A stretch of 30,426 nucleotides of DNA from Halichondria panicea. Its lineage: Eukaryota > Porifera > Demospongiae > Suberitida > Halichondriidae. Made by a program: the position numbers and the translations under genes. Of the stretch, positions 1-30,426 are shown in pieces (the first letter of the stretch is position 1; every line of letters starts with the position of its first letter). A model generated the notes under the pieces. That model saw only the letters and a program-made list of their open reading frames with translations, was not told the origin of the DNA and did not search any database. Location: positions 3,934,175 through 3,964,600 of the forward strand of contig NC_087390.1 of NCBI RefSeq assembly GCF_963675165.1. Reading direction: 5' to 3'.

Positions 1-405
1 CACAACACTATGCAATCTCATTCTACATTCTAAAAGTAACTCCTTGTTGGTGGTCAGAGGTGGTTCTAGGAGGGTTCTAGGTCAGATGGTCAGATGATGA
101 GGTGGTGAGAAGGGAACAGTAGAGGTGTTGAGAAAAGGAAAAATGGAAAAATAAAAATTGTTGGAACGGTCTCACTCAGGAAAAGCACAGATCTGTTCAA
201 GCACAAGCACCGTTTAAGTTCAGCACAAGCAGATCTGTTCCAACAATTTTCAATTTTGGGGTTAATTTTTGGGTTCTGATTTTTACAACGTTGTGGGAAC
301 GGTCTGAAACTTTGAGTGAAACTCAGCCTGTTGACGCTCATATCTATGGAGGGCCATTTGGGCCATTTGGGTCAAAAATAAGGGAATATAAACTCATGTC
401 AACAC
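1..405. other. Non-coding flank with short internal repeats
   Basis: No convincing coding sequence. A 14-bp perfect inverted repeat (AAAATTGTTGGAAC at 154-167 and its complement at 237-250) could form a stem with a loop of about 70 bases. Two copies of GGAACGGTCT followed by ACTCAG lie near 163 and 299, and CAGATCTGTTC occurs twice. A 9-bp tandem duplication (GGCCATTTG) lies at 352-369. The segment may be the outer part of the element proposed for 406-4290, but no clear terminus is visible. Confidence 0.5.
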
Positions 406-790
406 ACGGTTAGAAGACACGCTCAGGCAACACACGCTCAGAAGACACGCTCAGTAAACGTGCTGAGGCAACACACGCTCAGAAGACGCGTTAGGCAACG
501 CGCTCAGGCGACGCGCTCAGAAGACCTGCTCAGGCAACACACGCTCAGAAGACACGCTCAGAAGACACGCTCAGGCAACGCGCTCAGAAGACCTGCTCAG
601 GAAACGCGCTCAGGCAACACACGCTCAGAAGACGCGTTTAGGCAACGCGCTCAGAAGACCTGCTCAGGAAACGCACTCAGGCAACACACGCTCAGAAGAC
701 GCGTTGCCTGAACGCGCTCAGAAGACGAGCTCTGGAGACACGCTCAGCCAGCACACGCTCAGCCAGCACACATACACGTTCAGGAGACTC
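406..790. repeat. Minisatellite, 13-15 bp units (left inverted arm)
   Basis: This is a degenerate tandem array of units such as ACACGCTCAGAAG and ACGCGCTCAGGCAAC, at least 20 units long. A rare variant, GTAAACGTGCTGAGG at about 452-466, marks one position in the array. The same variant, embedded in the same neighbouring units, occurs in reverse complement in the array at 4141-4290, so the two arrays are homologous and inverted rather than merely similar in composition. The open reading frame through the array (460-711) is an effect of the repeat. Units are too short and too directly adjacent for a CRISPR-like reading. Confidence 0.9.
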
Positions 791-883
791 GCTCAGCCTT
801 GATACCTTGACCTTTGTACTGGCGATTTTTGACCTTTGTACTGTGTACTGTGTAGTAGAGAAATCGTGTGAAAATTAATTATC

Positions 884-2042
884 ATGGCAGTTTACCTTGT
901 GAACAGTCACATAGACCTCTGTATAGCACTACAAAATGTGATTGAGGACTACCAGAGGGATCATGTTCAGCAACCTAGGATTGTAATAACTGAAGAACAA
1001 GTATTACATAGCCATTTCTCGGTGCAAGATATGGCAAAACTACTACAGTGTTCAGCCAAAACTGTTTATCGGCGAATACAAGAGTTTGGATTCACCAGTT
1101 ATCTACATTCTGTTGTAAGCGACGTTTCCCTGGAGTCCATCGTTTCTCTGTTTGTCCAGCAACATCCCATGAACGGACCACTTAAGATCACAGGGAATAA
1201 GAGTACCCAGACAAAGAGCAAGGGACAGCCTAGCACGTGTTGACCCTGCTGGTGTCTCTAGTAGATTAAGAATAACTCTACATCGACGGTGATATTCTGT
1301 ACCTGGTTCAAATAGTCTTTGGCATGTGGATGGATACCACAAGCTTATCCACTGGAAAATAGTCATCCACGGTGGGATAGATGGCTATTCAAGGCTCATA
1401 GTATATCTGCATGCTGCAGTCAACAACAGAGCTGAAACGCTCCTTTTTTGCTGGTGTTGAAACATTTGGGCTACCATCAAGAGTTAGAAGCGATAAGGAT
1501 GGAGAAAATGTGAGTATTTCGAGGTATATGCTCAACCACCCTGAGAGAGGACCAGGAAGAGGAACCATGATAACAGGTCGCAGTGTACACAACCAAAGGA
1601 TTGAGAGACTTTGGCGTGATCTGTATGTTGGTTGTGTAGCTCCTTTCTATGGTCTGCTAGATGCGTGTGATGACAGAGATATTTTTTCTCTTCACTATTC
1701 TGTGCTGTCCTTGCTCAGTTACGGCAGTTCAGTAACTCATGGAAAAATCATCCTCTTAGTAGTGAAAGAGGAAAAACTCCGTATCAGCTGTGGGTTCTTG
1801 GAATGTGCACTAGTGCGGAAGACGCTGCACTACAGAGTGTATTGGAGCCACTGAGTAATGTAGGTTAAATTATACAATGCATTCATACCTGGAGTGGTAC
1901 TCTGATCCAGCGCAAGTTACCACCTTACTTAGCTGATGTGTTGGAAACTGTAATTGATCCTGATCCAGACACTATAACCCTTGATAACTTCGGTAAAACA
2001 TATGTTCTTGTTAGAACATTTGTGCATGCCTTTTCAGAGTGA
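884..2042 (+). pseudogene. DDE integrase-core transposase-like gene, broken
   Basis: The reading begins at ATG 884. Residues about 45-72 form a helix-turn-helix (DMAKLLQCSAKTVYRRI), as in the metazoan stand-alone integrase-core family with an N-terminal HTH. The catalytic core is recognisable across three frames: WHVDGYHKLIHW (first Asp at 1329-1331), [26 protein letters not shown] (second Asp at 1492-1494), then [17 protein letters not shown] (Glu at 1603-1605), and later [15 protein letters not shown]. All three acidic catalytic codons remain. The gene is dead as written: a frameshift lies near 1200-1210, a TGA at 1290-1292 replaces a codon after LHRR, and further frameshifts lie near 1437-1450 (in a T run) and 1690-1716. 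A C-terminal remnant (VIDPDPDTITLDNFGKTYVL) ends at TGA 2040-2042. It converges with the HECT remnant on the other strand. The family assignment is confident; that it mobilises DNA is inferred from the family. Confidence 0.85.
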
Positions 2043-2263
2043 AGTAGATCACAGGTATAATTTATAATTATTGAGTTGTGATCCAAAGATTTTCTCCGTG
2101 CACTTTAATTTGTTCTTATCAATGTACGACAATTCAATCAGAGGTGAATAAAATAATGTTGTTTGAGCAACTCAGCATGCGGTAACAATGAGAATAAGAT
2201 GGCAGAGTATATATATATATAGATAGCATGGGTATATATAAGAAAAATGGAAAAAAAAAAAAT
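2043..2263. other. Spacer between convergent remnants
   Basis: This AT-rich gap separates the stop codon of the integrase remnant on + from the stop codon of the HECT remnant on -. It contains AATAAAATAA near 2147-2157, a plausible polyadenylation signal for the + gene, and a (TA)n tract at about 2208-2221. No coding sequence is seen. Confidence 0.5.
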
Positions 2264-4006
2264 TTAGACTTGGCCGAAACTTACTGCACAGGTAATACCC
2301 TGAGCAAATTTGTATTTAAATTTTTCACAGTCATTGTGGTTGGTTGTTGGAATGAACAATGTGTTTGTGCACGTGCTAGATGTAGGTAAATCTGATTTAG
2401 CCTCATCTTCAGCATTGAAGACAGCTCTTCCTCAAACCCTAGTGGAGGACACCAGCAGCTCCTGTGGTGAAAATCAACACATCTGGAGGAAGATTTTCCG
2501 GTTCACTGTTGTTCACCACAGTTACTTTTCCATTCCCATCTATAACAAGTTATTTTGCAACTATAATATTCACCTTCCAAATCCAGTGCCTCTGTTCAGT
2601 CCCCAAGGCTCAAACAAAAGGAGCAAGGAGGAGCAAGCTTCTCCACTTCTTCGGCAGTAAGCTCTGCATTGAACTTGAAGAGAGCCTTGAGAATAATCAC
2701 GGTGCTCTCTTTTCTCCCTACGTACAGCTACGTACTAATAGCTAGCATTCTATTATATATTACCTATAGGGATGACTTGATGTCTCTTCACTTCCTGCTT
2801 TATCCCTGCACAAAAATAATGTCCTAGTTTCATATTTGAATGCGTGCATGCCATTTTTACCCTTCTTGCGCTTGGACTCTCGGTAAGAATGACGGAAATT
2901 CCCTGTTAAACTGTTTCACTGTCACTGCAACAGAAGAGGTATATATACGTGTATATATATAGGGGCTTTCTGAGCAACCTGGGTCCTATATGGAATTGGT
3001 AGCTAGGTATCGCGCATGCACATACCTGTCAGAAGGCACTTGACAGGGATGACCAGGTGCATCACCAGCTATTAGCTAAGATAGCCAACAAGAACGTATT
3101 CAAAATTAAGGGCAGCAACGTATAGTGTTATAGCATTTTAATGCAAGTTAGCTTACTGTGGTGGAGTATGGGAGTTTTGGCATTTGGCTACATGTTCCCT
3201 GAGATTCTTTAACTGCATACATTCCCCACAAGTGATGCATTTCTCAACCATCTGTATAAGTGTTGTATATAAGAGTGTATACTGTTACTGTGCCGTAAGT
3301 ATAGTCGCTACACTCGATACCACAACCACAACAACATACAATGTCAGTGCCAGCAAGCTAGACACAAGAACTAGTGCAGGTGTACATATCTGGTATATGC
3401 ATATCTGGTATATGCAACTTACATATGTTTGGGAATTAGACTTATCCTCAAGTGGTGTCGTATCCAAATTCCTCTGAATCGGACGTATGTCAGAGCATTT
3501 GAAGAGATACACTCTAGCAGCATCGCATTAGCTCCACCCTCAGAGAGCTTGGGGAAATGGTCAACCAGTATCTCATCGGCGCTGCATTCCATGTCAGTAA
3601 AAGTGATTTTCTGCTCCCCTAATCCACCATCCAAAAGCGCTTCACGCTCCCACATAGTTTTGGACTGGTCACTTCTAGCAAGACAATAGAATGCATGTGT
3701 CCAGCATGTGCTTGCTTTTTGCTTCTTTTTGCCAGAGCCCACAGAAAATAATTTACGCTTCTTGCCAGCGTTGTAAGGTGCAAAATTGAATTTTTGCTCT
3801 TGGCCTATCTCTTCCTTCACATTCTTTAGAGTTTTGAGAGCTATTGAAGCCTAGGTCTCCTATGACGTCATCTATATAATTAATTATAGGGACGATTTAG
3901 CAAGGTAGTTTAGGCTATAGTCTAGTCAATACTTACCATCAATACCTAGCCCAGACCTTGAAGTAGAAGGTTGATTGTCTGCCCTACTGGATGATGATGG
4001 ATTGCT
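2264..4006 (-). pseudogene. HECT E3 ubiquitin ligase-like gene (G2E3-like), broken
   Basis: Visible exons, in gene order: 4006-3937 (Ser-rich, ends STSRSGLGID), 3840-3423, an exon ending at 2574, and 2539-2264. The splice joints fit: donor GTAAGT after 3937 with acceptor AG before 3840 is in phase, donor GTAAGT lies after 3423, and donor GTGAAT after 2574 with acceptor before 2539 is in phase. The 3840-3423 exon carries a Lys-rich stretch, then a block with the pattern of the G2E3-like family N-terminus: CWTHAFYCLAR, GLGEQKITF, FPKLSEGG, LLECISSN, then RPIQRNLD after a 1-base frame change. The last exons match the end of a HECT C-lobe: NLPPDVLIFTTGAAG, then LPTSSTCTNTLFIP with the catalytic Cys codon at 2371-2369, then a C-terminus FGQV with TAA at 2264-2266. 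Frameshifts and stops (near 2435, 2425 and in the exon upstream of 2574) break it. The HECT N-lobe is not seen between 2760 and 3420. Family-level function would be ubiquitin transfer through the Cys. Confidence 0.72.
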
Positions 4007-4070
4007 CTGTAGAGAACTAAGAGACCTCTGAGGTAGGTACCAGCTGTAAATTTGACCTCTGATTTGACCC

Positions 4071-4140
4071 TTGCACTTTGAACCTTTTACTCTAAATAAA
4101 GTCAAGTCCTTTGCACTTTAACCTTTTGCTCTAAATAAAG
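4071..4140. repeat. Imperfect direct repeat with two AATAAA motifs
   Basis: A unit of about 31 bp (TTGCACTTTGAACCTTTTAC then TCTAAATAAAG) at 4071-4101 recurs at 4110-4140 with few changes. Each copy ends in AATAAAG. It lies directly inside the right minisatellite arm. It is upstream of the HECT remnant and on the opposite strand, so the AATAAA motifs are unlikely to serve that gene. Confidence 0.7.
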
Positions 4141-4290
4141 CGTGTGTTCCCTGAGCGCGTTATCTAACCGTGTATTGTTTGAGCGCGTCTTCTGAACGTG
4201 TGTTGCCTCAGCACGTTTACTGAGCGCGTCTTCTGAGCGCGGTTCCTGAGCACGTCTGCATTGCCTGAGCGTGTTGCCTGAACGTACGGT
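4141..4290. repeat. Minisatellite (right inverted arm)
   Basis: The array has units such as GAGCGCGTCTTCTGAACGTG and TTGCCTGAGCGTG. Its reverse complement matches the array at 406-790 collinearly over about 60 bp around the shared variant GTAAACGTGCTGAGGCAACA, with few mismatches, and both arrays also share ACACGGTTAG. Together the two arrays form a pair of inverted arms about 3.4 kb apart. Confidence 0.88.
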
Positions 4291-4500
4291 GGCCGATAGG
4301 GGTCACCCGCCTCCGCCAACTAATACCGCCCGCGGCTAACACTCGGTAAAGGGTCACCGCCTCATTTTGCCGCGAGCGGTAAACGAAGAAATGCCGCCGC
4401 CAGGGTCGCCGCCTCATTTAGCCGCCAGCGGTAAAACCTACCCGCCTGAAAATACCGCTCGCGGTATAACCCTTACCGCCCTAAAATGGCGACATCGCAA
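4285..4500. repeat. GC-rich hairpin cluster, about 52 bp periodicity
   Basis: Imperfect repeats start with GGGTCACCCGCC (about 4299), GGGTCACCGCCT (about 4350) and GGGTCGCCGCCT (about 4402), with a weaker copy near 4440. Each contains a near-palindrome built on CCGC..GCGG, the clearest being ATACCGCTCGCGGTAT near 4453. The segment is far richer in GC than its surroundings. It abuts the right minisatellite arm and may be part of the same element or a separate foldback element. Confidence 0.75.
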
Positions 4501-4506
4501 GAGGTC

Positions 4507-5341
4507 AAAAGGTCAATGTTTATAATTAAAGCGCACCTTGGTTTATCATGAGTTGTGTTCAGATGCTCAGCAAGTATGGCTCTTACTATTCCCCCTAGAA
4601 CCCTCATAAAACTAAGCATTAATAGAGGTAGTGAGGTGAGAGTTCACCTGTGGTGTTCTCGCTTCCTAGATCCTCCCTATCTCTGTTAAACTAGTTGCTT
4701 ATAGTTGCTTATAATTATAGATAAGCTGAGGGAATATTTTTGGTTTGGAAGGTCCTATAAATGTATTTTGGCACGGCTATGGACAGTAGATGGAAGGTTT
4801 GTTTTATTCACTTCACCTCACCACACGTACACAGGAATAATTGTTTGCTTGCTTGTATAGTCTAAGCTGGTTAAAGAGAAAGTTTCGAAAAATGGGGTTG
4901 AAGAAAAGACTTGGTGATGCCCCAGATGAAAGATAGAGGTGAATGTATGTATTGTAGAGGATGTGCATGTGATTTAGTAGCTAAGCCAATATCTAGATGG
5001 GCAGACTGATTGTTTAGCCTCCCATTCACGTGGACAAACTACTGTTCCATCTGATGTTAATTACCTGAATGAGGGCCCTCACGCCACGCACAGGGACCCA
5101 TTCCCACCCCCGTGATGTAACCCCCGTGGACAGAAGCCAATGCCTATAATATCTGATATGACGCTTAGTTACAACTATGCTAGCTACGACTATAGTGAAC
5201 ATACTATTATTGTAGGTGTTAATGCAAACCCCATACAAGCTCCGTCGTTTGCTAACCAGAAAGTATGAGATATGTGTTGGAAGGTTAGTGCTTTAGTGCT
5301 TTATACTGTGGTGCTTTATACTGTGTTAAGACTGTAGTGAA
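4507..5341. other. Spacer, nothing coding recognised
   Basis: This is AT-rich sequence with short tandem duplications: AGTTGCTTAT twice at 4693-4712, and GTGCTTTATACTGTG twice at 5296-5325. The upstream exons of the integrase remnant at 5342 would be expected here, but I cannot identify its helix-turn-helix part. Confidence 0.4.
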
Positions 5342-6052
5342 TATCTACTAGAGACGTAGTTGATGAGATCAATTGATCCTGAAGGAGTGTTACTGAGAAG
5401 GAAGCGACAACTCTGAAGAAGAGTGTACTACAGCAAAGTTTGTCTACACTGTATAATTAAATTATGATTATGTTACACATTCTATCTGTAGGGACCGAAC
5501 TATATATGGCATATAGATGGATACGATAAATTAAACGATAAATTAAAGCCGTATGGACTCTGCATCCATGCCTGTGTTGATGGGTAAGATTTTACTAATT
5601 TTTAGTATGTTTTTAAATGGAAGTCTTGATTAGTTACTCAAGGAAGCTAATATGGTTTAAGGTTGGTCCAACGAACAACAACCCCAAAGTCATTGCCAGG
5701 TATTACCTTGAAGCTGTGGAAAGACTGAAGGGTATGTATACATTATATGTAGCATTGCTACGTTAGGGCATAATTGTTGCTGGCTTTGTAGGATGCCCTA
5801 TGGTAGTAAGAGGAGACTGTGGAACTGAAAACTGTAGTGTTGCCCAAATCCAAATTGCCTTTCATATGAATCATGATGACGACCAATCAAAAGTTTCATT
5901 TATGGTCCTTCAACAGCTAACATAGTGAGTTGTACTCAATGTCATATAAAATTATAATCATTATTGTATTTATGTAGCGAGTTGAGGCATTCTGGTCTCA
6001 GTGGTCTCAGTGGAGACGCTCTTGTTGTCATTGGTGGATAGATGTTTGCAAG
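5342..6052 (+). pseudogene. Second DDE integrase-core gene, with introns, broken
   Basis: It belongs to the same integrase superfamily as 884-2042 but to a different lineage (motifs GPNYIWHIDGYDKL and EVGPTNN-like). Exons: about 5342-5437 (ISTRDVVDEI, frame change, then SIDPEGVLLRRKRQL, TGA at 5414-5416, RRVYYSK), 5492-5583, 5634-5731 (YSRKLIWFKVGPTNNNPKV), 5792-5924 (CPMVVRGDCGTENCSVAQIQ), and 5978-6052 (RVEAFWSQ, ending WWIDVCK). The last four introns use good GT..AG sites (GTAAGA/TTAG, GTATGT/GTAG, GTGAGT/GTAG, GTGAGA/ACAG) and the phases match; the first donor (GTTTGT) is weak. The acidic triad is present: Asp in WHIDGY, Asp in RGDCGTEN, Glu in RVEAFW. Damage: a stop at 5414, a frameshift near 5905, and an exact 12-bp tandem duplication (5524-5547) that inserts four residues after HIDGYDKL. 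The C-terminal part beyond 6052 is uncertain. Confidence 0.8.
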
Positions 6053-7937: not shown

Positions 7938-8636
7938 CGTCAATAGAATGCCCATACAACAAGGGTGCAACATGTGTTGCCATAACAACCATGGTTATTA
8001 CGCTCACCCGTTTTTATCATTTTAAATGCCCGGCCAGCGGTGAGATAAAATCCAAAGAGATAAAATCCAAAAATTTTTTTTTTATGGATCAGCCTATCAT
8101 ATGGTATAAAGGCTTGACTAAGCTTGATTTTCACATCATATGAATGTAACAGTGCTAAGATATATCTATATCGGTGAACGATCTATGAAATTTACAAACT
8201 GTTCATTACTGCTAATTCTATTTTAGCTATACTATACTTACACTACTGATATTCTAGCTATACTATACTACTTGCCAGAGTCACACAGTGAGCCCTCTCC
8301 TGGTCTTTCACCGTCCTGGTCCATAGCACTAGCGTCTAGGTCCATGTCATGCACATGTCCTCAGTCCCAGACAGTTCATCAGCGTCTGGCATAAAGCTGG
8401 TAGCCGGTATCCATAGGCACTGTCATCACCAGAGCTGTTCAAGCACATCGGCACAAGTAAACAATCTAGCCATAGCTTCGTGCGGTAAGATGCTAATGAA
8501 ATTTTAACATAGCAACGTGGCTTGGAAAATTCTAGACTAAATTGCACGTGATTCTACAGCTCTTCCTCTATACAGGGATGTGCGTAGTTCGAGCTACTTC
8601 CGAAGTATCGCAGAATTAGAATTTTGCAAAAAAGTC
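7938..8636 (-). mobile_element. piggyBac-derived element, copy 1 (truncated at both ends)
   Basis: This is the reverse complement of most of the element at 12307-13184. The match starts at about 7938 and runs to about 8636, ending in a T-rich tract next to GACTTTTT in the other copy. Both terminal inverted repeats are lost. On the - strand it carries the same small coding start (MARLFTCADVLEQL, ATG near 8474), broken after that by a deletion of about 33 bp relative to copy 2. A 15-bp tandem duplication at 8042-8071 is absent from copy 2. The SET-domain reading begins exactly where this copy ends. Confidence 0.85.
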
Positions 8637-9051
8637 ACAACTACCCGTGGGCCCCAAATTGAGGGTGGAAGTTTTTGAGGGCAAAGGAAGAGGAGTTGCC
8701 CTTGAGGCAATACCGAAGGGGTCCTTCGTGTGTGAGTACGTGGGCAAGCTGCTCAATTTTGCATTGACGAAGGCTGCAGAGAAAGCCTATGAGCAGCAGG
8801 GAGTCGGATGCTACATGTATTATTTTAAGGATGACTCCAAGTGAATGTGGTGAGCCTAATTTATATTATGTATAATTTCATATATTTAAATTAAAATTAA
8901 TAGTATTGATGCCACTAAAAAAGGCCGTTTGATAAATCACTCTCGCTTAGCACCAAATTTAATCCCCAAGAAATTTGGTGAAGAGCTGCTGTACGATTAT
9001 GGAGAGGAAGACAGAGATGTCATAGGGGGGTGGACTGGACCACCTCCATAA
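8620..9051 (+). pseudogene. SET-domain (KMT5A/SET8-like) fragment
   Basis: Exon 1 is open from 8620 with no ATG; its first codons come from the end of the adjacent transposon. It reads EGKGRGVALEAIPKGSFVCE, then YVG, then GCYMYYFKDDSK. An in-frame TGA (8842-8844) follows, probably a former Trp codon. A GTGAGC donor at 8850 and an AATAG acceptor at 8903 define a 54-bp intron that rejoins the frame as MCIDATKKGRLINHS. The end reads FGEELLYDYGEED, stop at 9049-9051. Motifs GKGRGV, YVG, CYMYYF, RLINHS and ELLYDYG in this order are those of histone H4K20 mono-methyltransferase-type SET domains. The segment normally lying between RLINHS and GEELLYDYG is about 20 residues too short, so the fold is unlikely to be complete. 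The fragment lacks any N-terminal region. Methyltransferase activity is not expected as written. Confidence 0.82.
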
Positions 9052-19351: not shown

Positions 19352-20221
19352 GTGTGTGTGGGTGCATGCCGTGTTTGTGTGTGGTGTGTGTGTGTGTGTG
19401 GGAGGGGGGAGGGGGAGGGGGCGTGCATGCCGTGTTTGTATTTGTGTATTTGGTGTTGGTGTTGTGTGGGAGTGTGCACGCCGTGTGTATGTGTGTGCTG
19501 TGGTGTGTGTGTGCTGTGTGTGTGTGTGTGTGTGCTGTGTGTGTGTGTGGGAGGGGGTGTGCACGCCGTGTTTGTATTTGTGTGTGTGTTTGTGTGTGTT
19601 GTGTGGGACGCCGTGTGTATGTGTTGTGTGTATGTGTTGTGTGTGTGTGTGTGTGTGTGTGTGTGGGAGGGGGGGTGTGCACGCCGTGTTTGTGTGTGTG
19701 TGGGTGGGAGGGTGTGTATGTGTGTGCGTGTGTGGTGTGCGGTGTGCACGCCGTGTGGGGGGGTGTGTGTAGGCCTGTGTGTAGGCCGTGCGTGTGTGTG
19801 TTGAGGGGGGTGTGTGTGTGTGTGGGAGGAGGGTGAGGTTGTGTGTGTTATGTGTGTTGTGTGTGTGTGGGAGTGTGGGAGGGGGTGTGTGTGTGTTGTG
19901 TGGGAGGTTGTGTTTGGGTGTGTGTGCACGCCATGTGTGTTATGTGTGTTGTGTGTGTGGGAGGGAGGGGGTGAGCACGCTGTGTTTGAGTGTGTGGGGG
20001 GGGTGCACGCCGTGTTTGTGTGTTTGTGTGTGGGGGTGTGTGTTGTGCACACACACGTGTGTGGGAGGGGGTGTGCATGCCGTGTTTGTATGTGTTGTGT
20101 GGACGCCGTGTGTGTGTGTGGGGTGGGTTGGGTTGTGCACGCCGTGTTTGTGTGTGTGGTGTGGCACGCCGTGTTTGTGTGTGTGTGTTTGTGGTGTGTG
20201 TGTGTGGGAGGGGTTGTGCAT
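19352..20221. repeat. TG-rich satellite, block 1
   Basis: The + strand is almost only G and T apart from a recurring core, GTGTGCAYGCCGTGT. Two unit types alternate: (TG)n GGGAGGGGGTGTGCAYGCC followed by GTGTTTGTATTTG, and TTGTGTGGGGGTGTGCACGC followed by CGTG. Long reading frames on both strands result from the lack of stop codons in TG repeats. It ends abruptly at GTGCATGGAAAAG. Confidence 0.95.
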
Positions 20222-20612
20222 GGAAAAGAATGAAAAGGAAAACGAAAACGGAAGGCGGAAACGGAAAACGGAAACGGAAACGACTATTACCATTCTGTAT
20301 TTTTTTGCAGTAGTGAAAGCAGAAATGTATTGGGAAATTCAAGGAGCAACTAGCTTGAGACAAGGGGTGCTTCATGTTCACTAAATCTCATCAGTACAGT
20401 GCTTTTATGCTTTCATGTTCACTTCACTCTCATCAGTTTAATTATCATTCTGTGTTTTAAATTGAATATATAAATCAATAAATAAACATGAGAGTGAACA
20501 TGAAGCAAGTGAAGTAAAAACCGAAAACCGGACAAGTACAAGGCTACCATGCAGTACTGTTAGATGGCTAGGTTCAGCTGTATCTCCAACATAATTACAA
20601 TCTTGTGTAACT
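20222..20612. other. Spacer with purine tract and inverted repeat
   Basis: A purine-rich tract of GGAAAAC/GGAAAC units covers 20222-20283. TTCATGTTCAC at 20371-20381 and 20412-20422 is complementary to GTGAACATGAA at 20494-20504, with the match extending through CTCTCATG. It may be the remnant of a small foldback element. No coding sequence. Confidence 0.5.
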
Positions 20613-20614
20613 AA

Positions 20615-20770
20615 AGGCCTGTCCACACTAGACACTCAATGCGCATTCAAACTGAATTGAGTGTGTCCACACCCAATGCGCATTGCGCGAATTCGAATTA
20701 CAACTGCTTTGACCCAATCCACCTCTGTAGGTGGATTGAATGCGCATTGCACAGGATTCGCGTGCGTTAT
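20615..20770. mobile_element. Harbinger-like 5' end (partial element)
   Basis: GGCCTGTCCACACTAGACAC starts at 20616 directly after TAA, the form expected of a PIF/Harbinger end with a 3-bp TWA target. The subterminal region carries three copies of the perfect palindrome AATGCGCATT (20638-20647, 20675-20684, 20739-20748), a second copy of TGTCCACAC at about 20665-20673, and a 10-bp perfect hairpin (CAATCCACCT..AGGTGGATTG, 20715-20738). The matching 3' end is not found in the window. The Myb-like coding start 84 bp further on fits, since this superfamily encodes a Myb/SANT-like protein beside its transposase. Confidence 0.5.
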
Positions 20771-20853
20771 TTAGAAATGTATCAATGAATTTTTATGCAG
20801 CCTTGCAGGTGCAGGTGCTCTAGCTAGCTATAGATCTACTAGATTAGGCAGAC

Positions 20854-21096
20854 ATGGCCATGGAGATGCAGCAGAAGTGGAAGAGCAGTGCTTGTGGTTG
20901 GGACAGTGAGGCTACACACGCTCTAATTAATATATGGGGCCAAACAGATGTCCAGAGCAAGCTAGACTCTGTAAAGAGGAACAGAGACATCTTCCTGAAA
21001 GTGTCTAGAGATCTCCCAAGACCTTGGATACAACTGGACAACTGGACTTGGGAGCAATGTAGGACTAAAATAAAGAACCTCACACAGAAGTATAGG
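20854..21096 (+). CDS. Myb/SANT-like DNA-binding protein, N-terminal fragment
   Basis: ATG 20854 lies in a good context. The reading gives about 80 residues with the tryptophan and helix pattern of a trihelix or Myb/SANT-like domain: WDSEATHALINIWG (first helix), VQSKLDSVKRNRDIFLKVS (second), WTWEQCRTKIKNLTQKYR (third). Such domains occur in Harbinger-type accessory proteins and in many expanded animal gene families. The frame then runs without a stop straight into the TG satellite, where it becomes Val-Cys-rich and stops being protein-like. Either a splice donor existed at the junction or the gene was truncated by the satellite. After the satellite, near 21968, AAAGGTATAGGGTGGATGAT resembles the last bases before it (GAAGTATAGG). 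No downstream part of the gene is recognised. Confidence 0.65.
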
Positions 21097-21541
21097 CGTG
21101 TGTGTGTGTGTGGTGTGTGTGTGCCGTGTGTGTGTGTGTGGGAGGGGGGGGTGTGCATGCCATGTTTGTATTTGTGTGTGTGTTGTGTGGGGGTGTGCAC
21201 GTGTGTTATGTGTGTGTGTTATGTGTGTGTGTGTGTGGGAGGGGGTGTGCACGCCGTGTGTGTGTGTTGTACGTGTATGTGTGTGTGTGTGGGAGGGACG
21301 CCGTGTTTGTGTTTGTGTTTGTGAGTGTGTGCCGTGTGCCGTGTGTGTTGTGTGTGTGTGGGAGGGGGTATGCACGGCGTGTTTGTGTGTGTGTGTGTGT
21401 GTGCCGTGTGCCGTGTGTGTGTGTGTGTGGGAGGGGGTGTGCATGCCATGTTTGTATTTGTGTGTTTGTTGTGTGGGGGTGTGCACGTGTGTTGTGTGTG
21501 TGTGTGCGTGGGAGGGGGTGTGCACGCCGTGTGTGTGTTGT

Positions 21542-21572
<31 letters not shown>

Positions 21573-21965
21573 GGAGGGACGCCGTGTTTGTGTTTGAGTG
21601 TGTGTTTGAGTGTGTGTAGGGGTGTGTAGGGGTGTGTGTGTCGTGTGTGTGTGGGAGGGGGTGTGCACGCCGTGTTTGTGTGTGTGTGTGTGTGTGTGGT
21701 GTGTGTGTGCCGTGTGTGTGTGTGTGTGGGAGGGGGTGTGCATGCCATGGGGTGTGCATGCCATGTTTGTATTTGTGTGTGTGTTGTGTGGGGGTGTGCA
21801 CGCCGTGTGTGTGTGTTGTGTGTTGTGTGTGTGTGTGTGGGAGGGGGTGTGCATGCCGTGTGTGTGTGTGTTGTGCGTGTATGTTGTGCGTGTGTGTGGG
21901 AGGGGGTGGGAGGGGGTGTGCACGTAGTGTTTATGTTTGTGTGTGTGTGGGTGTGTGTGTTATAC
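21091..21965. repeat. TG-rich satellite, block 2
   Basis: The same unit types and orientation as block 1. A higher-order period of about 290 bp is visible: the run from GTGCCGTG through CATGCCATGTTTGTATTTG, GTGCACGTGTGTT, GTTGTACGTGTATG and GGGAGGGACGCCGTG occurs at about 21121-21330 and again at about 21411-21600. A third, more diverged round starts near 21707. Confidence 0.93.
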
Positions 21966-23280: not shown

Positions 23281-25974
23281 TTTCCCCCACCAGGCAGGGG
23301 GACCCCCATGGAGAAGGGTCCCCCCGCGTGGTGGGGGACCCTTCTCCATCTAGTATGTACATAATTATTGTATACTTATTTAGAGGTTTACATGTTTATT
23401 TGTCTTAACATTATTATAGCACATATAATTATACATACATACAATCAATCATATATCTTACAATGCACCGTGGCCGATAGTTACGTTTAGACCTTTTGGA
23501 ACAACAGTATCTAATGTGAGAATCCAAAAGCGTTCAAGCTTTTTTAGTTCTTCGAGATTATCTGCTTGGTCTATTGCTTGTACGGCGAGGTGGTGTATAT
23601 TATGATCCTTGAAATTGAAATGTCTGCTAATGTAGATGGGTTGATTATGGGTGATGTTGGATCGGTGTCTACAGATTCTATAATTCAGTTGTTTTGTTGT
23701 TAGACCGACATATTGTTTTTTACAAGTAATCAGGTAGATAACGTTGGATGATTTACACGTGAAAGATCGTCTGATAGGGTGTGTCCTTCCGTTGGTGGCA
23801 CTACGGAAGTAAGTATTGCAGTTTAGGTGTGGACAGGTGGCACATCTGATGTTTTTGCAAGTTTTGGTTGACGTTTCACCCGGGCGTAGTGTTGGCCTTG
23901 TAGCATTGTGCGATGTGCTGTTGAGGCTGTGGAACTCCTGGCTGGTGGTGAGTACCATGTCAACGAATTGTTCATCTGTGGGGTATATTTTTGCACGAAT
24001 TAGGTCTTCTCCGAGTTTTTTGTGCCTTAGAGGAATAAATCTAGGTCTTGGTGCACGATAATGTTGTAGGATGATTGCCTTTAGAGCATTATAGTTTGGT
24101 GGAGGCAGACACTTAAAAGTTGGTTTTGGCTTCGAGATATTTGCGATGGTGGGTTCTTTCAGGTAGTTCTGTCTTTGTTTGTAATTGATTTTTCGAGTTG
24201 TTTTGTTGACGAGCGCTGTGGGATATTGTCTTTTGTATAGCCTTTGTTTGAACTGTTCTAAGGTCGCTAGATAGTTGTCCTTTGACGAATTAATTCTTAC
24301 GTATCTTATACATTCTCCTATTATGAGGACCTTGAATGTTGACATTGGATGACATGAATTGAAGTGTAGGTATTGGTATAAGTTTTGAGTTTTTTGGAAC
24401 GTTTTTGTGTCTAACAGGTTTGTTGCTGGGAAAGCGAGACCCTTAAAGATGGTTATATCTAAATAATCGACTGATGTTTTGGAGAATGTCCACGTGTATC
24501 TCAGTGTTGCATGGAAGCAGTTGAGTGCTGGAGGAAGGTTAGTAGGTCTTCTAGGGAGTGTTCCCAAATGATAAAGATGTCGTCTATGTACCTTTTAAGG
24601 AGGTGTGGTTTTTTGAGCTGGGTTGCAATGAACTTTTCCAAAATAGTGGACATAAAGATGTTTGCAATGGTGGGTGAGAAAGCAGCTCCCATTGCTGTCC
24701 CTTTGACTTGTTTAAAGGTGATGGGCCCAAATTCGAAAAAGTTCGAAGTGACATTGGTGTGCAACAGTTTAATAATTAGGTTCGGATCGAACAGGAGTAG
24801 ATGTTTTTTGGCATGCATTTCTTCGTAGACTATTTCTAGGCATTCTTTTTGCGGAATTGATGGGTAGAGGCTTTCTACATCGATTGTGACCAAAAAGGCA
24901 TCGTCTGGGATATGCATATATTGGAGTATACGAAGGAGAGAGCTGGAGTTGAGAAGGAAGTCTTGATGTGATCGGGCGAGAGGTTGAAGGACGTGATCGA
25001 TAAACTTGGCCGTTGGTGCTAGTAGCGAGTTTGAGTGGGATACTATTGGGCTGACTGGTGTTATGGATTTTTGGTATACCATAGAATTTGGGTGTCTGTG
25101 TTTTATTTGGTTGCGGCAGAAGAAAATTGTGGAGGTTTTTATGAGGTTTCAGTATTCTTGAATGCTCAATTAGTGTGTTCTGGAGATTTCGGTGGATTGT
25201 TGTGGCTGGGAAGGTGTCTACTTGTACATTATGTATTGGTGTCCGCTAATTGGGATGCACATATTTGTATATAGTCGCTGGTGTTCATGACCACTATGCC
25301 CAAGTTTTTATCTGCTGGTTTGATTGTGAGTGCTGCTCTATTTTTATGAAACGGTTTTTTGCGATTTTTTGTTTTTTAGGGAGATTCGTTTTTGTTGCTT
25401 GAAAAAGTGCCGGTAATTGGTCATTCAAGGAGTTCTTTGTTGTGTCTATGTAAGCTTCTAGAATAGGTTCCCCCGAGTAGATTTGAGTAATGGATGTGTG
25501 TGATGGTTTAGGTAGAAATTTCATTCGTCGGTAAATTAAAGGGTTTTGTGTGTCCTGTGATACTTGGGTTTTGACCGTTTCCTTTGTCTGTGGTTTTCGG
25601 GTTGCGTGTACATAGATTGGACGTAAAGTTTGTGCATATTAATTTGTCGAATTGTTTTAAAAGTTCGAGGTGTTGGGTGATGGTGGGGGCGTTCGGAGTG
25701 GGGGAAAAAGAGAGTCCTTTATTAAGAAGAGCGAGGTCGGTATCCTGTAAATCCACTGAACTTAAGTTGTGTACGCTTAAGTCAGTGTTGAATTGGCTTG
25801 GGGGCCTAAGGATAAAAAAGAATTTTGTGCATTTTTGGGTGATGTAATTGGGCACTTGGTCGGATTTGTCTGGTTGTGGGATAACTTGCATTTCTTTTGG
25901 GCTGGTTGACTCCCCGTTGTTTTTCGTTTTCCCTCTTTGGTTGGCTTAGGTGTTTTCTTGCTTTTGATTTCCAT
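23281..25974 (-). mobile_element. Penelope-like retroelement, RT plus GIY-YIG, nearly full length but broken
   Basis: Coding remnants run on - from ATG at 25974-25972 to TAA at 23460-23458, about 840 codons, the usual length of this family. In order: a Lys-rich start (KKTPKPTKEGKRK), LLNKGLSFSPTP, KPADKNLGIVVM (about 25290), then reverse transcriptase motifs TIDVESLYPSIP (motif A), KGTAMGAAFSPTIANIF (motif B) and YIDD (motif C, 24590-24579). A Cys motif follows (CKNIRCATCPHLNC), then a GIY-YIG endonuclease signature (IYLITCKKQYVGLTTKQL, with R and H following). The order RT then GIY-YIG is that of endonuclease-bearing Penelope-like elements. The frame changes at least four times (near 25800-25880, 25510, 25290-25080 and 24500-24567), so it is inactive. 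The 369-codon C-terminal segment is still fully open. The non-coding 3' part ends at the GT run. No hammerhead core was seen. Confidence 0.9.
23308..23349. repeat. 17-bp perfect inverted repeat (hairpin)
   Basis: ATGGAGAAGGGTCCCCC at 23308-23324 pairs exactly with 23333-23349 across an 8-base loop. Further C and G runs on both sides (CCCCCACCAGG, GGGGGACCCCC) could extend or compete with it. It lies in the 3' non-coding part of the Penelope-like element. It could be a structural end of that element or an independent small foldback. Confidence 0.9.
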
Positions 25975-28761
25975 ATGTGTTGTGTGTGTGTTGTTGTGTG
26001 GGGGTGTGCACGCCGTGTATGTGTGTTGTGCGTTTGTGTGTGGGAGGGGTGTGTGCTGTGTGTGTGTGGGAGGGGGTGTGCACGCCGTGTTTGTGTGTGT
26101 GTGTGCCGTGTGTGTGTATGGGGGGATGTGCACACTGTGTGGGGTGGGGTGTGCATGCAGTGTTTGTATTTGTGTGTGTTGTGTGGGGGTGTGCACGCCG
26201 TGTGTGTGTGTTGTGTGTGTGTGTGGGAGGGGGTGTGCACGCGTGTGTGTATTGTGTGTGTGTGTGTGTGTATGTGGTGTGCACGCCGTGTGGGGGGGCC
26301 GTGTGTGTGGGAGAGGGTGTGCCCACGCCGTGTTTGTATGTGTGGGAGGGGGTGTGCACGCCGTGTTTGTGTGTGTGGTACGTGTGTGTGGGTGGGGGGG
26401 TGTGCACGCCGTGTGTGTGTGTGTGTGTGTGTGTGGTGTGCACGCCGTGTTGGGGGGGTGTGTAGGCCGTGTATGTGTGTGTGTTGTGTGGTGTGTGGGG
26501 GTGTGCACGCCGTGTGTGCGTGTGTGTGTATGTGTGGGAGGGTGTGTGCACGCCGTGTTTGTGTTTGTGTGTGTATGTGTGTGTTGTGTGTGTGGGATGT
26601 GCACGCCGTGTTTGTGTGTGTGTGTGTGTGTGTGGGGGGTGGGTGTGTGTGTCGTGTGTGTCGTGTGTGTGTGTGTTGTGTGAGTGTTGGAGGGGGCACG
26701 TGTTGGAGGGGGCATGCCGTATTTGTGAGTGTGTGCCGTGTGCCGTGTGTGTGTGTGGGGGGGTGTGCACACTGTGTGTGTGGGAGGGGGTGTGCACGCC
26801 GTGTTTGTGTGTGTGTGTGCCGTGTGTGTGTATGGGGGGATGTGCACACTGTGTGGGGTGGGGTGTGCATGCAGTGTTTGTATTTGTGTGTGTTGTGTGG
26901 GGGTGTGCACGCCGTGTGTGTGTGTTGTGTGTGTGTGTGGGAGGGGGTGTGCACGCGTGTGTGTATTGTGTGTGTATGTGGTGTGCACGCCGTGTGGGGG
27001 GGCCGTGTATGTGTGTGTGGGAGAGGGTGTGCCCACGCCGTGTTTGTGTGTGTGGTACGTGTGTGTGGGTGGGGGGGTGTGCACGCCGTGTGTGTGTGTG
27101 TGTGTGTGTGTGGTGTGCACGCCGTGTTGGGGGGGTGTGTAGGCCGTGTATGTGTGTGTGTTGTGTGGTGTGTGGGGGTGTGCACATGTGTGGGGGTGTG
27201 CACGCCGTGTGTGCGTGTGTGTGTATGTGTGGGAGGGTGTGTGCACGCCGTGTTTGTGTTTGTGTGTGTATGTGTGTCGTGTGGGGGTGTGTTGTGTGTG
27301 TGGGATGTGCACGCCGTGTTTGTGTGTGTGTGTGTGTGTGTGGGGGGTGGGTGTGTGTGTCGTGTGTGTCGTGTGTGTGTGTGTTGTGTGAGTGTTGGAG
27401 GGGGCACGTGTTGGAGGGGGCATGCCGTATTTGTGAGTGTGTGCCGTGTGCCGTGTGTGTGTGTGGGGGGGTGTGCACACTGTGTGTGTGGGAGGGGGTG
27501 TGCATGCCGTGTTCGTATTTGTGTGTGTGCACGCCGTGTGTGTGTGTGTGTGTGGGAGGGGGTGTGCACGCCGTGATTATGTTAGTGTGTGTGTGGGTGT
27601 CGTGTGTGTGTGTATGTGTGGGTGTGTGTGTTGTGTAGGGGTGTGTGTGGTGTGTGTGTGCCGTGTGTGTCTGTGGGGGTTGAGTGTCTGTGGGGGTTGA
27701 GGGGGTATGCATGCCGTGTGTTTGTTTTTTTGTGTGGGAGTTTGTGTGTGTGTGGGAGGGGGTGTGCACGCCGCCGTGTTTATGTTTGTGTGTGTATGTG
27801 TGGGGGTGTGTGTGTCGTGTGTGCGTGTGTGTGTGTGTGGGGGTGTGTGTGTCGTGTGGTGTAAGGTTGAGGTGGTATGCATGCCGTGTTTGTATTTGTG
27901 TGTGTGTTGTGTGGGGGTTTGTGTGTGTGTGGGAGGGGGTGTGCACGCCGTGTTTGTGTGTTTGTGTGTGGGATGGGTTTGTGTGTGGGATGGGGAGTGT
28001 TTATGTTTGTGTGTGTGTGTTGTGTGGTGGTGTGTGTGTCGTGTGTGTGTGTGGGGGTGTGGGGGTGTGTGAGTCGTGTGTGTTGTGTGTTGTGTGTGTG
28101 GGAGGGGGTGTGCACGCCGTGTGTGGTGTGTGTGTGTGTGTGTGTTGGGGGTGTGCACGCTGTGTATGTGGGAGGGGGTGTGCATGCCGTGTTTATATTT
28201 GTGTGTGTGTTGTGTGGGGATGTGCACGCCGTGTTGTGTGTGTGTGTGTGTGTGTGGGAGGCGGTGTGCACGCCGTGTTTGTGTGTGGTGTGGGGTGTGC
28301 ACGCCGTGTTGTGTCGTGTTTGTGTATGTGTGTGTGTGATGTGTGTGTGTGTGCCGTGTGTGTGGGTGTGCACGCCGTGTGTGTTGGAGGGGGTGTGCAT
28401 GCCGTGTTTGTATTTGTGTGTTGTTGTGTGGGGGTGTGCACGCCGTGTGTGTGTGCTTGTGCGTTTGTGTGTGTTTGTGTGTGGGAGGGGGTGTGTGTGT
28501 GTGTGTGTGGGGGGGAGGTATGTGTGTGTGTGTGTTGTGTGTGTGTGGGAGGGTGTGTGCACGCCATGTTTTTGTGTGTGGTGTGTGTGTGTGCCGTGTG
28601 TGTGTATGAGGGTGTGTGCACACTGTGTGTGTGGGAGGGTGTGTGCATGCCTCGTTTGTATTTGTGTGTGTTGTGTGGGGGTGTGCACGCCGTTTGTGTG
28701 TGTGTGTGTGGGAGGGGGTGTGCACGCCGTGTTTGTGTGTGTGGTACGTGTGTGTTTGGGT

Positions 28762-28795
<34 letters not shown>

Positions 28796-30426
28796 TGGGC
28801 ACACCCTGTGGGGTAGGCCGTGTATGTGTGTGTGTGGTGTGTGGTGTGTGTGTGTTGTGTGTGTTGAGGGGGGTGTGTGTACGCCGTGAGTGTGTGTATG
28901 TGTGTGTGTGTGGGAGAGGGTGTGCATGCCGTGTTTGTGTGTGTGTTGTTTGAGTGTGTGTTGTGTGGGGGTGTTCACGCCGTATTTGTGTGTGTGGTAT
29001 GTGTGTGGGGGTGTGCACGCAGTGTTTGTGTGTGTGTGTGTGTGCCGTGTGTGTGTGTGGGGGCTGTGTGTGTGGGAGGGGGTGTGCGTGCCATGTTTGT
29101 GTGTTTGTGTGTGTGTGATTGTGGTGTGTTTGCCGTGTGTATGTGTGGGGGGGGTGTGTGGGAGGCATGTCGTGTTTGTGTTTGTGGGAGGGGGTGTGCA
29201 TGCCGTGTTTGTGTGTTTGTGTGTGTGTGATTGTGGTGTGTGTGTGTGGTGTGTGTGTTTGCCGTGGGTATGTGTGGGGGGTGTGTGTGTGGGAGGCATG
29301 CCGTGTTTGTATTTGTGTGTGTGTTGTGTGGGGGTGTGCACGCCGTGTGTGTGTGTTGTGCGTGTGTATTGTGCGTGTGTGTGTATGTATGTGGGAGGGG
29401 GTGTGCACACCGTGTTTGTGTTTGTGATGTGTGTTGTGGGGGTGTGTGTGTTGTGTGTGTTGTGTGGGGGTGTGTATGTCGTGTGTGTGTGTGTGGGGGT
29501 GTGTGTGTGTGTCGTGTGTGTGTGTGTATGGTGTATGTTGTGTGTTGTGTGTGTGTGGCCTCGAGGGGGTGTGCACGCCGTGTTTGTGTGTGTGTGTGTG
29601 TGTGTGTGTGGTGTGAGTGTGTGTGTGGGGGTGTGTGCACGCTGTGTGTGTGGGGGCGTGTGTTGTGTGTTGTGTGGGGGTATGTTGTGTGGGGGTATGT
29701 GTGTCGTGTGTGTGTGTGTGTGTGTGTGGGGGTGTGTGTGTGTGTGTGTTGTGTGTGTGTGGGAGGGGGTGTGCACGCCGTGTTTGTGTGTGTGTATGTG
29801 TGTGGGGTGTGTATGTGTGTGGGAGGGAATGTGCATGCCGCGTTTGTGTGTGTGGTGTGTGTGTGTGGGTGGGAGGGGCCGTGTTTGGGGTGTGCACTGC
29901 CGTGTGTGTGCGTTGTGTGTGTGTGTGTGTTGGAGGGGGTGTGCACGCCGTGTTTGTGTGTGTGTCGTGTTTGTGTGTGTGTGTGTGGGTGGGTGTGCAC
30001 GCCGTGAGCATGCCGTGTTTGTATACATATGTGGGGGTGTACACGCTGGGTGTGCTTGCCGTGTGTGTATGGTGTATGTGGGGAGGGTGTAGGCCGTGGT
30101 GCACGCCGTGTGTGTGGTGTGTTGTGTGTGTGTGTTTGTTCAAGCCGTGTGTGTGTGTTTGTTCAAGCCGTGTGTGTGTGTGTGTTTGTGCAAGCCGTGT
30201 GTGTGTGGTGTGTGGGGAGAGTGTAGGCCGTGGTGCACGCCGTGTTTGTGGTGTTGTGGTGTGAGTGTGTTGTGTGTGTGTGTGTGTGAGTGTGTGTTGT
30301 GTGTGTGTGTGAGTGTGTGTTGTGTGTGTGTGTGGGGGGGTGTGCACGCCGTGTGTGTTTGTGTGGGGGGGGGTGTGCATGCCGTGTGTGTGGTGTGTGT
30401 TGTGTGTTGTGTGTGTGTGTGTGTGT
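25975..30426. repeat. TG-rich satellite, block 3 (runs past window end)
   Basis: Same family and orientation as blocks 1 and 2, with at least 4.45 kb visible. A higher-order tandem duplication of about 710 bp is clear: landmarks TATGGGGGGATGTGCACACT (26117 and 26831), CATGCCGTATTTGTGAGTG (26713 and 27421), GTGCCCACGCCGTG and GTGGTACGTGTG each recur at 708-720 bp spacing, covering about 26075-26785 and 26785-27495. A diverged trace of the same order lies near 28680-28850. From about 27600 on the units are less regular, with CAAGCCGTGTG variants near 30143-30200. G runs (GGGAGGGGG, GGGGGGG) recur throughout on one strand. Confidence 0.95.

Follow-up and report, generated by a model that had tools for sequence, protein, structure and literature searches.

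The window analysed here is a stretch of 30,426 nucleotides from the genome of the demosponge Halichondria panicea (NC_087390.1, positions 3,934,175 to 3,964,600), and it contains, close to its left edge, a decayed copy of a cut-and-paste DNA transposon. In most of the better-preserved relatives found in this genome, the transposon also carries a convergent gene for a HECT-type ubiquitin ligase. The window element combines a TATGG terminus, a 6-bp target duplication and inverted subterminal minisatellite arms with an integrase-type transposase gene (Pfam family PF24764) on the plus strand and a convergent HECT gene on the minus strand. An initial annotation of the window had described two homologous, inverted minisatellite arrays that share a rare variant unit and enclose the two convergent broken genes. 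This description is confirmed by the arrays called by Tandem Repeats Finder (TRF), by a 91% match, spanning the variant unit, of positions 415-490 to 4184-4257 in reverse complement, and by the recovery of both genes between the arrays. The left arm (401-762, plus strand) has a 13-bp base unit and a 67-bp higher-order period, and the right arm (4139-4284, minus strand; array called by TRF at 4141-4285) is a truncated, inverted copy of it.

The limits first proposed for the block, 406 to 4290, had to be redrawn. A sharp terminus, TATGGAGGGCC..., is common to related copies and lies immediately outside the array; in the window it starts at position 345, and genomic terminus matches, flanks and alignments define a left terminal inverted repeat (TIR) at 345-400 (plus strand), which in this copy contains a 9-bp internal duplication. 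The six bases before it, CATATC (339-344), are the left copy of the target site duplication and recur beside the displaced right end at C14:3835595. The right end lies outside the window, another element beginning at position 4285. Twelve further ends in the host genome (131 Mb) match the 30-base terminus, one of which is the window element's own right end.

The N-terminal, helix-turn-helix part of the transposase (872-1243, plus strand) was recognized by tblastn (878-1195) and by weak helix-turn-helix matches under the cut-off. The integrase-type catalytic core (1179-1862, plus strand) has a broken frame and is supported by a PF24764 match at 1402-1854 (E 4e-24), by tblastn with an intact relative as query (878-1862, plus strand, E 3e-44) and by motif positions: the codons of the catalytic triad stand at 1329-1331 (D), 1492-1494 (D) and 1603-1605 (E), the first D lying in a different frame from the second D and the E. 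Relatives in the host genome, which include four subfamilies (A, B, C and D), each with a version of the two genes peculiar to it, match PF24764 with E values as strong as 4e-84 and have open frames of 390-435 amino acids. A match to the rve profile (E 6e-7) is under its cut-off. The catalytic spacing in a B copy is D-56-D-36-E. No HHCC pattern precedes the core in the single protein examined (B2); weak helix-turn-helix-like matches are seen instead. Some of the relatives are more than 99% identical to one another, and from these copies and their open frames of 390-435 amino acids we infer recent activity.

The pieces of the HECT gene in the window were located by tblastn with exons of intact relatives. 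The C-lobe (2273-2401, minus strand), with the catalytic Cys codon at 2371-2369, was identified by its match to an intact relative (E 3e-5), by a C-lobe profile (1e-6) and by motif position. The N-terminal exon (3419-3850, minus strand) matches a subfamily A exon at 3506-3703 (E 1e-10) and no Pfam family. A CCHC finger (C-x2-C-x11-H-x3-C; 3180-3239, minus strand), whose spacing we take to be UBZ4-like, sits between the N-terminal exon and the HECT domain in the window copy, as does the same pattern in the relatives A1 and B1; the opposite strand of the 12 sequences scanned gives no match to it. A Pfam search of four window open frames, which did not include the C-lobe frame, found no HECT domain, and the N-lobe was not found in the window; the paralogue L009 keeps one (E 3e-17). 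When exons were joined, the HECT profile matched with E values of 5e-10 in A, 6e-12 in B and 3e-12 in C, the match in C spanning profile positions 2-304 of 306 and aligning to the HECT domain of RSP5 through the catalytic Cys region. The gene is placed among HECT ubiquitin ligases by the domain and the C-lobe catalytic Cys of the relatives, the latter being present in the window at 2371-2369. It resembles RSP5, UBE3A and HUWE1 in its HECT domain and in a catalytic Cys that aligns to that of RSP5, and differs from these ligases in being encoded within a transposon and in an N-terminal exon without a Pfam match. In the A, B and C ligases, short hydrophobic stretches followed by acidic residues were read by eye; these resemble SUMO-binding motifs and may be taken as a lead only.

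The association of the two genes was then counted across the host genome. A search with PF24764 gave 156 matches (150 of 234 candidates scored), and the 150 matches listed were merged into 114 integrase loci; the HECT Pfam search gave 95 matches, merged into 54 loci. With the Pfam models only, 29 pairs lie within 4 kb of each other, 28 convergent and one on the same strand, against a chance expectation of 0.37 in any orientation, and the gap between the integrase and HECT matches is 0.42-1.03 kb in 26 of the 28 convergent pairs. HECT exons that are spliced or divergent escape the Pfam model, so two HECT exon probes were added, which gave 35 and 26 matches. With all probes, the nearest HECT match within 4 kb of the 114 integrase loci is convergent in 64, on the same strand in five and divergent in none (0.74 expected); copies within one subfamily are not independent events in these counts. 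Among domain-length integrase matches, 47 of 70 are convergent with a HECT match. At four loci (C4:2654326, C4:3499349, C15:5971502 and C7:4194422), the integrase has a HECT match about 3 kb downstream on the same strand; these perhaps represent a rearranged subfamily.

Delimited elements give a second view of this linkage. Queries made of the 30 outermost bases of A, B and D returned 6, 9 and 7 inverted pairs, respectively, paired by eye, and a convergent integrase-HECT unit lies inside 20 of these 22 TIR-bounded elements (A, 6/6; B, 7/9; D, 7/7). The initial annotation had supposed that the block was one mobile unit carrying both genes, and these 20 elements, together with the 64 of 114 loci against 0.74 expected, make it close to certain that the two genes are parts of one mobile unit. 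Within the window alone, with its two broken genes and no right end, one could imagine two unrelated gene remnants inside an accidentally inverted minisatellite. This explanation has a negligible probability: the genome pair counts and the TIR-bounded elements with their duplications rule out a chance linkage of integrase and HECT, and a twin of the window element on C11 has CAGGCA at its two separated ends. It is also very improbable that an integrase transposon and a HECT transposon were nested or merged and accidentally fixed together in one ancestor. Nesting does occur, as with the element Z inside the window element and a MULE-like gene (by eye) inside a D element; however, no inner ends were noticed between the two genes, where no systematic search was made, the gap lies within 0.42-1.03 kb in 26 of the 28 convergent Pfam pairs, and a B element with HECT only has ordinary B ends.

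Exact 6-bp target duplications flank 21 of 28 elements or reunited elements (A, 5/6; B, 6/9; D, 4/7; C, 1/1; geneless, 3/3; reunited split elements, 2/2), and 7-bp duplications were read by eye in one A and one B element. The termini are TATGG..CCATA in the window family, A, B and D, TATGA..TCATA in C, and TACGG in Z. Inverted arm units are found at both ends in the window family (13-bp-based), in B (18 bp) and, with a length of 20 bp, in C and D, the two D ends having been read from different copies; A was read at the right end only (83-bp unit). The arrays begin about 45-120 bp from the element tip, inside a distinct, non-repetitive TIR. Each subfamily has different units, which, by analogy with the subterminal repeat regions of En/Spm, may plausibly be bound by the cognate transposase. 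The initial annotation had regarded a minisatellite occurring widely, in both orientations, without the genes as a sign of chance association. Arm pairs lacking genes do exist at three loci (867, 939 and 989 bp), but they share the ends and have exact 6-bp duplications (TGGGAC, AACGTA and AATAAC), and they are foldback-like non-autonomous copies.

The seven D elements span 12-29 kb, and six of them hold two or three integrase-HECT units in inverted order; given the exact duplications in four of the seven, such elements may move whole. One of them (C13:4272500-4284481; L112 and L113) has a 2.9-kb internal inverted duplication whose copies are 99.6% identical. Large cargo was considered for the D elements and set aside: parts of the interiors of L114 and L115, read by eye with no family search, hold a ligase-like N-terminal exon, minisatellites and the MULE-like gene, and no clear cargo.

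Several known systems share features with this element. Foldback elements such as FB and Galileo have long inverted arms of short tandem repeats, include mobile geneless arm pairs, and use transposases of the P or MULE kind, that of Galileo being P-like. The element described here resembles them in its long inverted arms of tandem subrepeats and in geneless arm pairs that have moved, and differs in its integrase-type transposase and in arms that lie inside a non-repetitive TIR of about 45-120 bp. En/Spm (CACTA) elements have short family-specific motif arrays adjoining their TIRs, plausibly protein-binding sites; the likeness is in these subterminal arrays, whereas the ends, duplication length and transposase are different. 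Ginger1, with an HHCC domain and 4-bp duplications, does not correspond either, as the B2 protein has no HHCC pattern and the duplications here are of 6 bp. GingerRoot, in its original study, reportedly has an integrase-related transposase, 6-bp duplications and mostly TA..TA ends. These features are all shared with the present element, and GingerRoot is grouped with IS3EU (PMC10045372). It is not known to have a HECT partner.

IS3EU elements have TA..TA ends, usually 6-bp target duplications and no HHCC finger (PMC10045372). In TET-bearing fungal IS3EU families, the ends are TAYGG..CCRTA with 6-bp duplications, and the transposase and alpha-kinase genes are oppositely oriented with a TET/JBP gene between them (PMC12730594). 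The sponge element has TA..TA termini, 6-bp duplications and a DDD/E transposase of the integrase/IS3/IS481 kind, with no HHCC finger in the one protein, and appears to fit the IS3EU/GingerRoot superfamily by termini, duplication length and DDE core. It is also like IS3EU in having an oppositely oriented second gene, as in the TET-bearing fungal families, and unlike it in that this gene encodes a HECT ligase instead of an alpha-kinase or TET/JBP protein, and in its subterminal minisatellite arms. The window block is very probably a fossil of an autonomous IS3EU/GingerRoot-type DNA transposon, with an integrase-like DDE transposase gene and, as its regular convergent partner, a HECT ligase gene.

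The initial annotation had known of no described element with this combination. As to the superfamily, this does not stand, since the class is already known; as to the HECT partner, the literature search returned no relevant paper joining HECT, or ubiquitin, with IS3EU, or HECT with GingerRoot, and Repbase entries, which it did not cover, may hold a prior description. The HECT companion gene is therefore the new and apparently undescribed part. No relatives of the transposase were found in viral contigs. Related transposases (50-58% identity), one with an open frame of 441 amino acids, are encoded by three contigs (L067-L069) that were deposited in a metagenome-assembled genome of a bacterium living in a poecilosclerid sponge as a symbiont; judging from the description of the deposit and from their content, these contigs are most likely sponge DNA. 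Besides its transposase, L068 has Gypsy-like frames (by eye).

Between subfamilies, synonymous differences (pS) amount to 0.66-0.79 and replacement differences (pN) to 0.31-0.53 in HECT, and to 0.68-0.92 and 0.24-0.46, respectively, in the integrase; the two genes are similarly constrained, with synonymous sites at or near saturation and replacement changes held down. These values bear on the idea that the ligase is a passenger, derived from a host HECT gene that was captured once by an ancestral element and carried since without helping it. Some copies have no detectable HECT, and IS3EU-type elements are known to carry other genes, TET/JBP and alpha-kinase in fungal families (PMC12730594). 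Nevertheless, a passenger is an unlikely explanation: the place and orientation of HECT are kept across subfamilies that have reached synonymous saturation in their transposases, and a useless gene would be expected to decay or vanish in most lineages, whereas the replacement rate of HECT is held down between them.

Other observations count against a regular pairing of two constrained genes in one transposon. Fifty of the 114 integrase loci do not have a convergent HECT as the nearest match within 4 kb. Since these 50 include fragments and the window copy itself, 64 of 114 is a lower bound: the probes under-detect HECT, as the window copy shows, but HECT has probably been truly lost at some loci. 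One B element has an integrase without HECT and another HECT without integrase, and 7 of the 28 elements, including three of the seven D elements, are without an exact 6-bp duplication. Within subfamilies, pN/pS is mixed, from 0 (D C-lobe) to 1.53 (HECT C-lobe, six C copies), with 0.74 for the B integrase, and two HECT exons have replacement changes only; such a pattern can arise in copies decaying after insertion. The finger pattern was found in 3 of the 12 sequences scanned, several of the others not spanning that region. Finally, L067 has no HECT in the roughly 1 kb downstream of its open transposase frame, the three symbiont-deposit contigs being short for detecting a HECT link.

For the paired transposon, a mechanism can be proposed from these parts. 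The helix-turn-helix-DDE protein would recognize its own subfamily's TIR and subterminal minisatellite units, pair the two inverted ends and mobilize the element through strand transfer, with the two target sites spaced by 6 bp; geneless copies would be foldback-like elements mobilized in trans. The ligase would be made from the opposite strand, and its catalytic Cys would serve to ubiquitinate some nuclear target that transposition either requires or has to overcome. The finger and the SUMO-binding-like stretches hint at a target that may already be marked by ubiquitin or SUMO. Help against host restraint, control of the transposase and passive carriage are the options for the ligase. Its target may be the element's own transposase, through turnover or clearance of the strand-transfer complex, instead of host silencing proteins; this has a substantial probability, short of an even one. 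The convergent layout suits a matched pair, as does the separate version of both genes in each of A, B, C and D, whereas the SUMO-binding-like stretches noted by eye in the A, B and C ligases would more naturally suggest SUMO-marked chromatin proteins. Somewhat more doubtful is the broader proposal that a large IS3EU-type lineage depends on its self-encoded HECT ligase. In this view, the ligase would recognize ubiquitin or SUMO marks and clear silencing or repair proteins that bear SUMO from the element, and transposase and ligase would make up a mobility system of two proteins with a role like that of the TET/JBP and kinase partners in fungal IS3EU.

Whatever its target, the ligase has an unchanged convergent position in subfamilies that are strongly diverged from one another and yet include recent, near-identical copies. 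If it aids movement, it would offer a direct route to host proteins that restrain a DNA transposon. Transposons with an enzyme that acts on host regulation are instructive in this respect: the fungal IS3EU have a demethylating enzyme and a kinase, and the element here a ubiquitin ligase. Lineage-specific swarms of HECT genes appear in animal annotations, and HECT-bearing transposons might account for them.

The right part of the window element was altered after insertion. At 4279-4284, TGAACG is the target duplication of the second element, Z, the same six bases being found beyond Z at L014. The end of Z (TACGGTGG..., 4285-4538, plus strand), which disrupts the right arm, matches L014 at 2771-3058 (79%). 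Z is a family of its own, because 17 of the 23 genomic rows returned with its end as query, the window among the 23, begin at 4283-4285. About 99 kb away, at C14:3835595, lies a window-family end that has no partner. Read as a right end, it has CATATC on its outer side; its arm is interrupted by a Z-type element, and the bases adjoining Z are TGAACG at both loci. On the two matching 6-bp flanks, the simplest account is that the right arm received Z with a 6-bp duplication, and that an inversion of about 99 kb with endpoints at Z then took the right end away. The C11 twin (L009 and L010) has a similar break: its left part (C11:3465752-3470422) and right part (C11:3301933-3303218) have CAGGCA at both outer ends and lie about 163 kb apart in opposite orientation, apparently because an inversion of that length separated them. 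Both elements thus point to inversions with breakpoints inside such transposons.

Elsewhere, a solo arm in L018 (about 1429-1700) has TATCAT on both sides despite an absent right terminus, as if an internal minisatellite unit had acted as an end. Downstream in the window, a second PF24764 integrase remnant of another lineage (5372-5930, plus strand; joined pieces E 5e-13) is possibly the gene of Z. A weak SET-domain match, under the cut-off (8620-8841, plus strand, E 0.006), is perhaps an exon of a host or element gene. Positions 23458-25950 on the minus strand hold a reverse transcriptase (PF00078, E 3e-10) and, after it, a GIY-YIG-like stretch, read by eye with no Pfam support; the arrangement resembles a Penelope-like element. 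Positions 19483-21960 and 25976-30426 are taken up by very long minisatellite tracts, rich in GT, in which a GTGTGCACGCCGTGT unit recurs.

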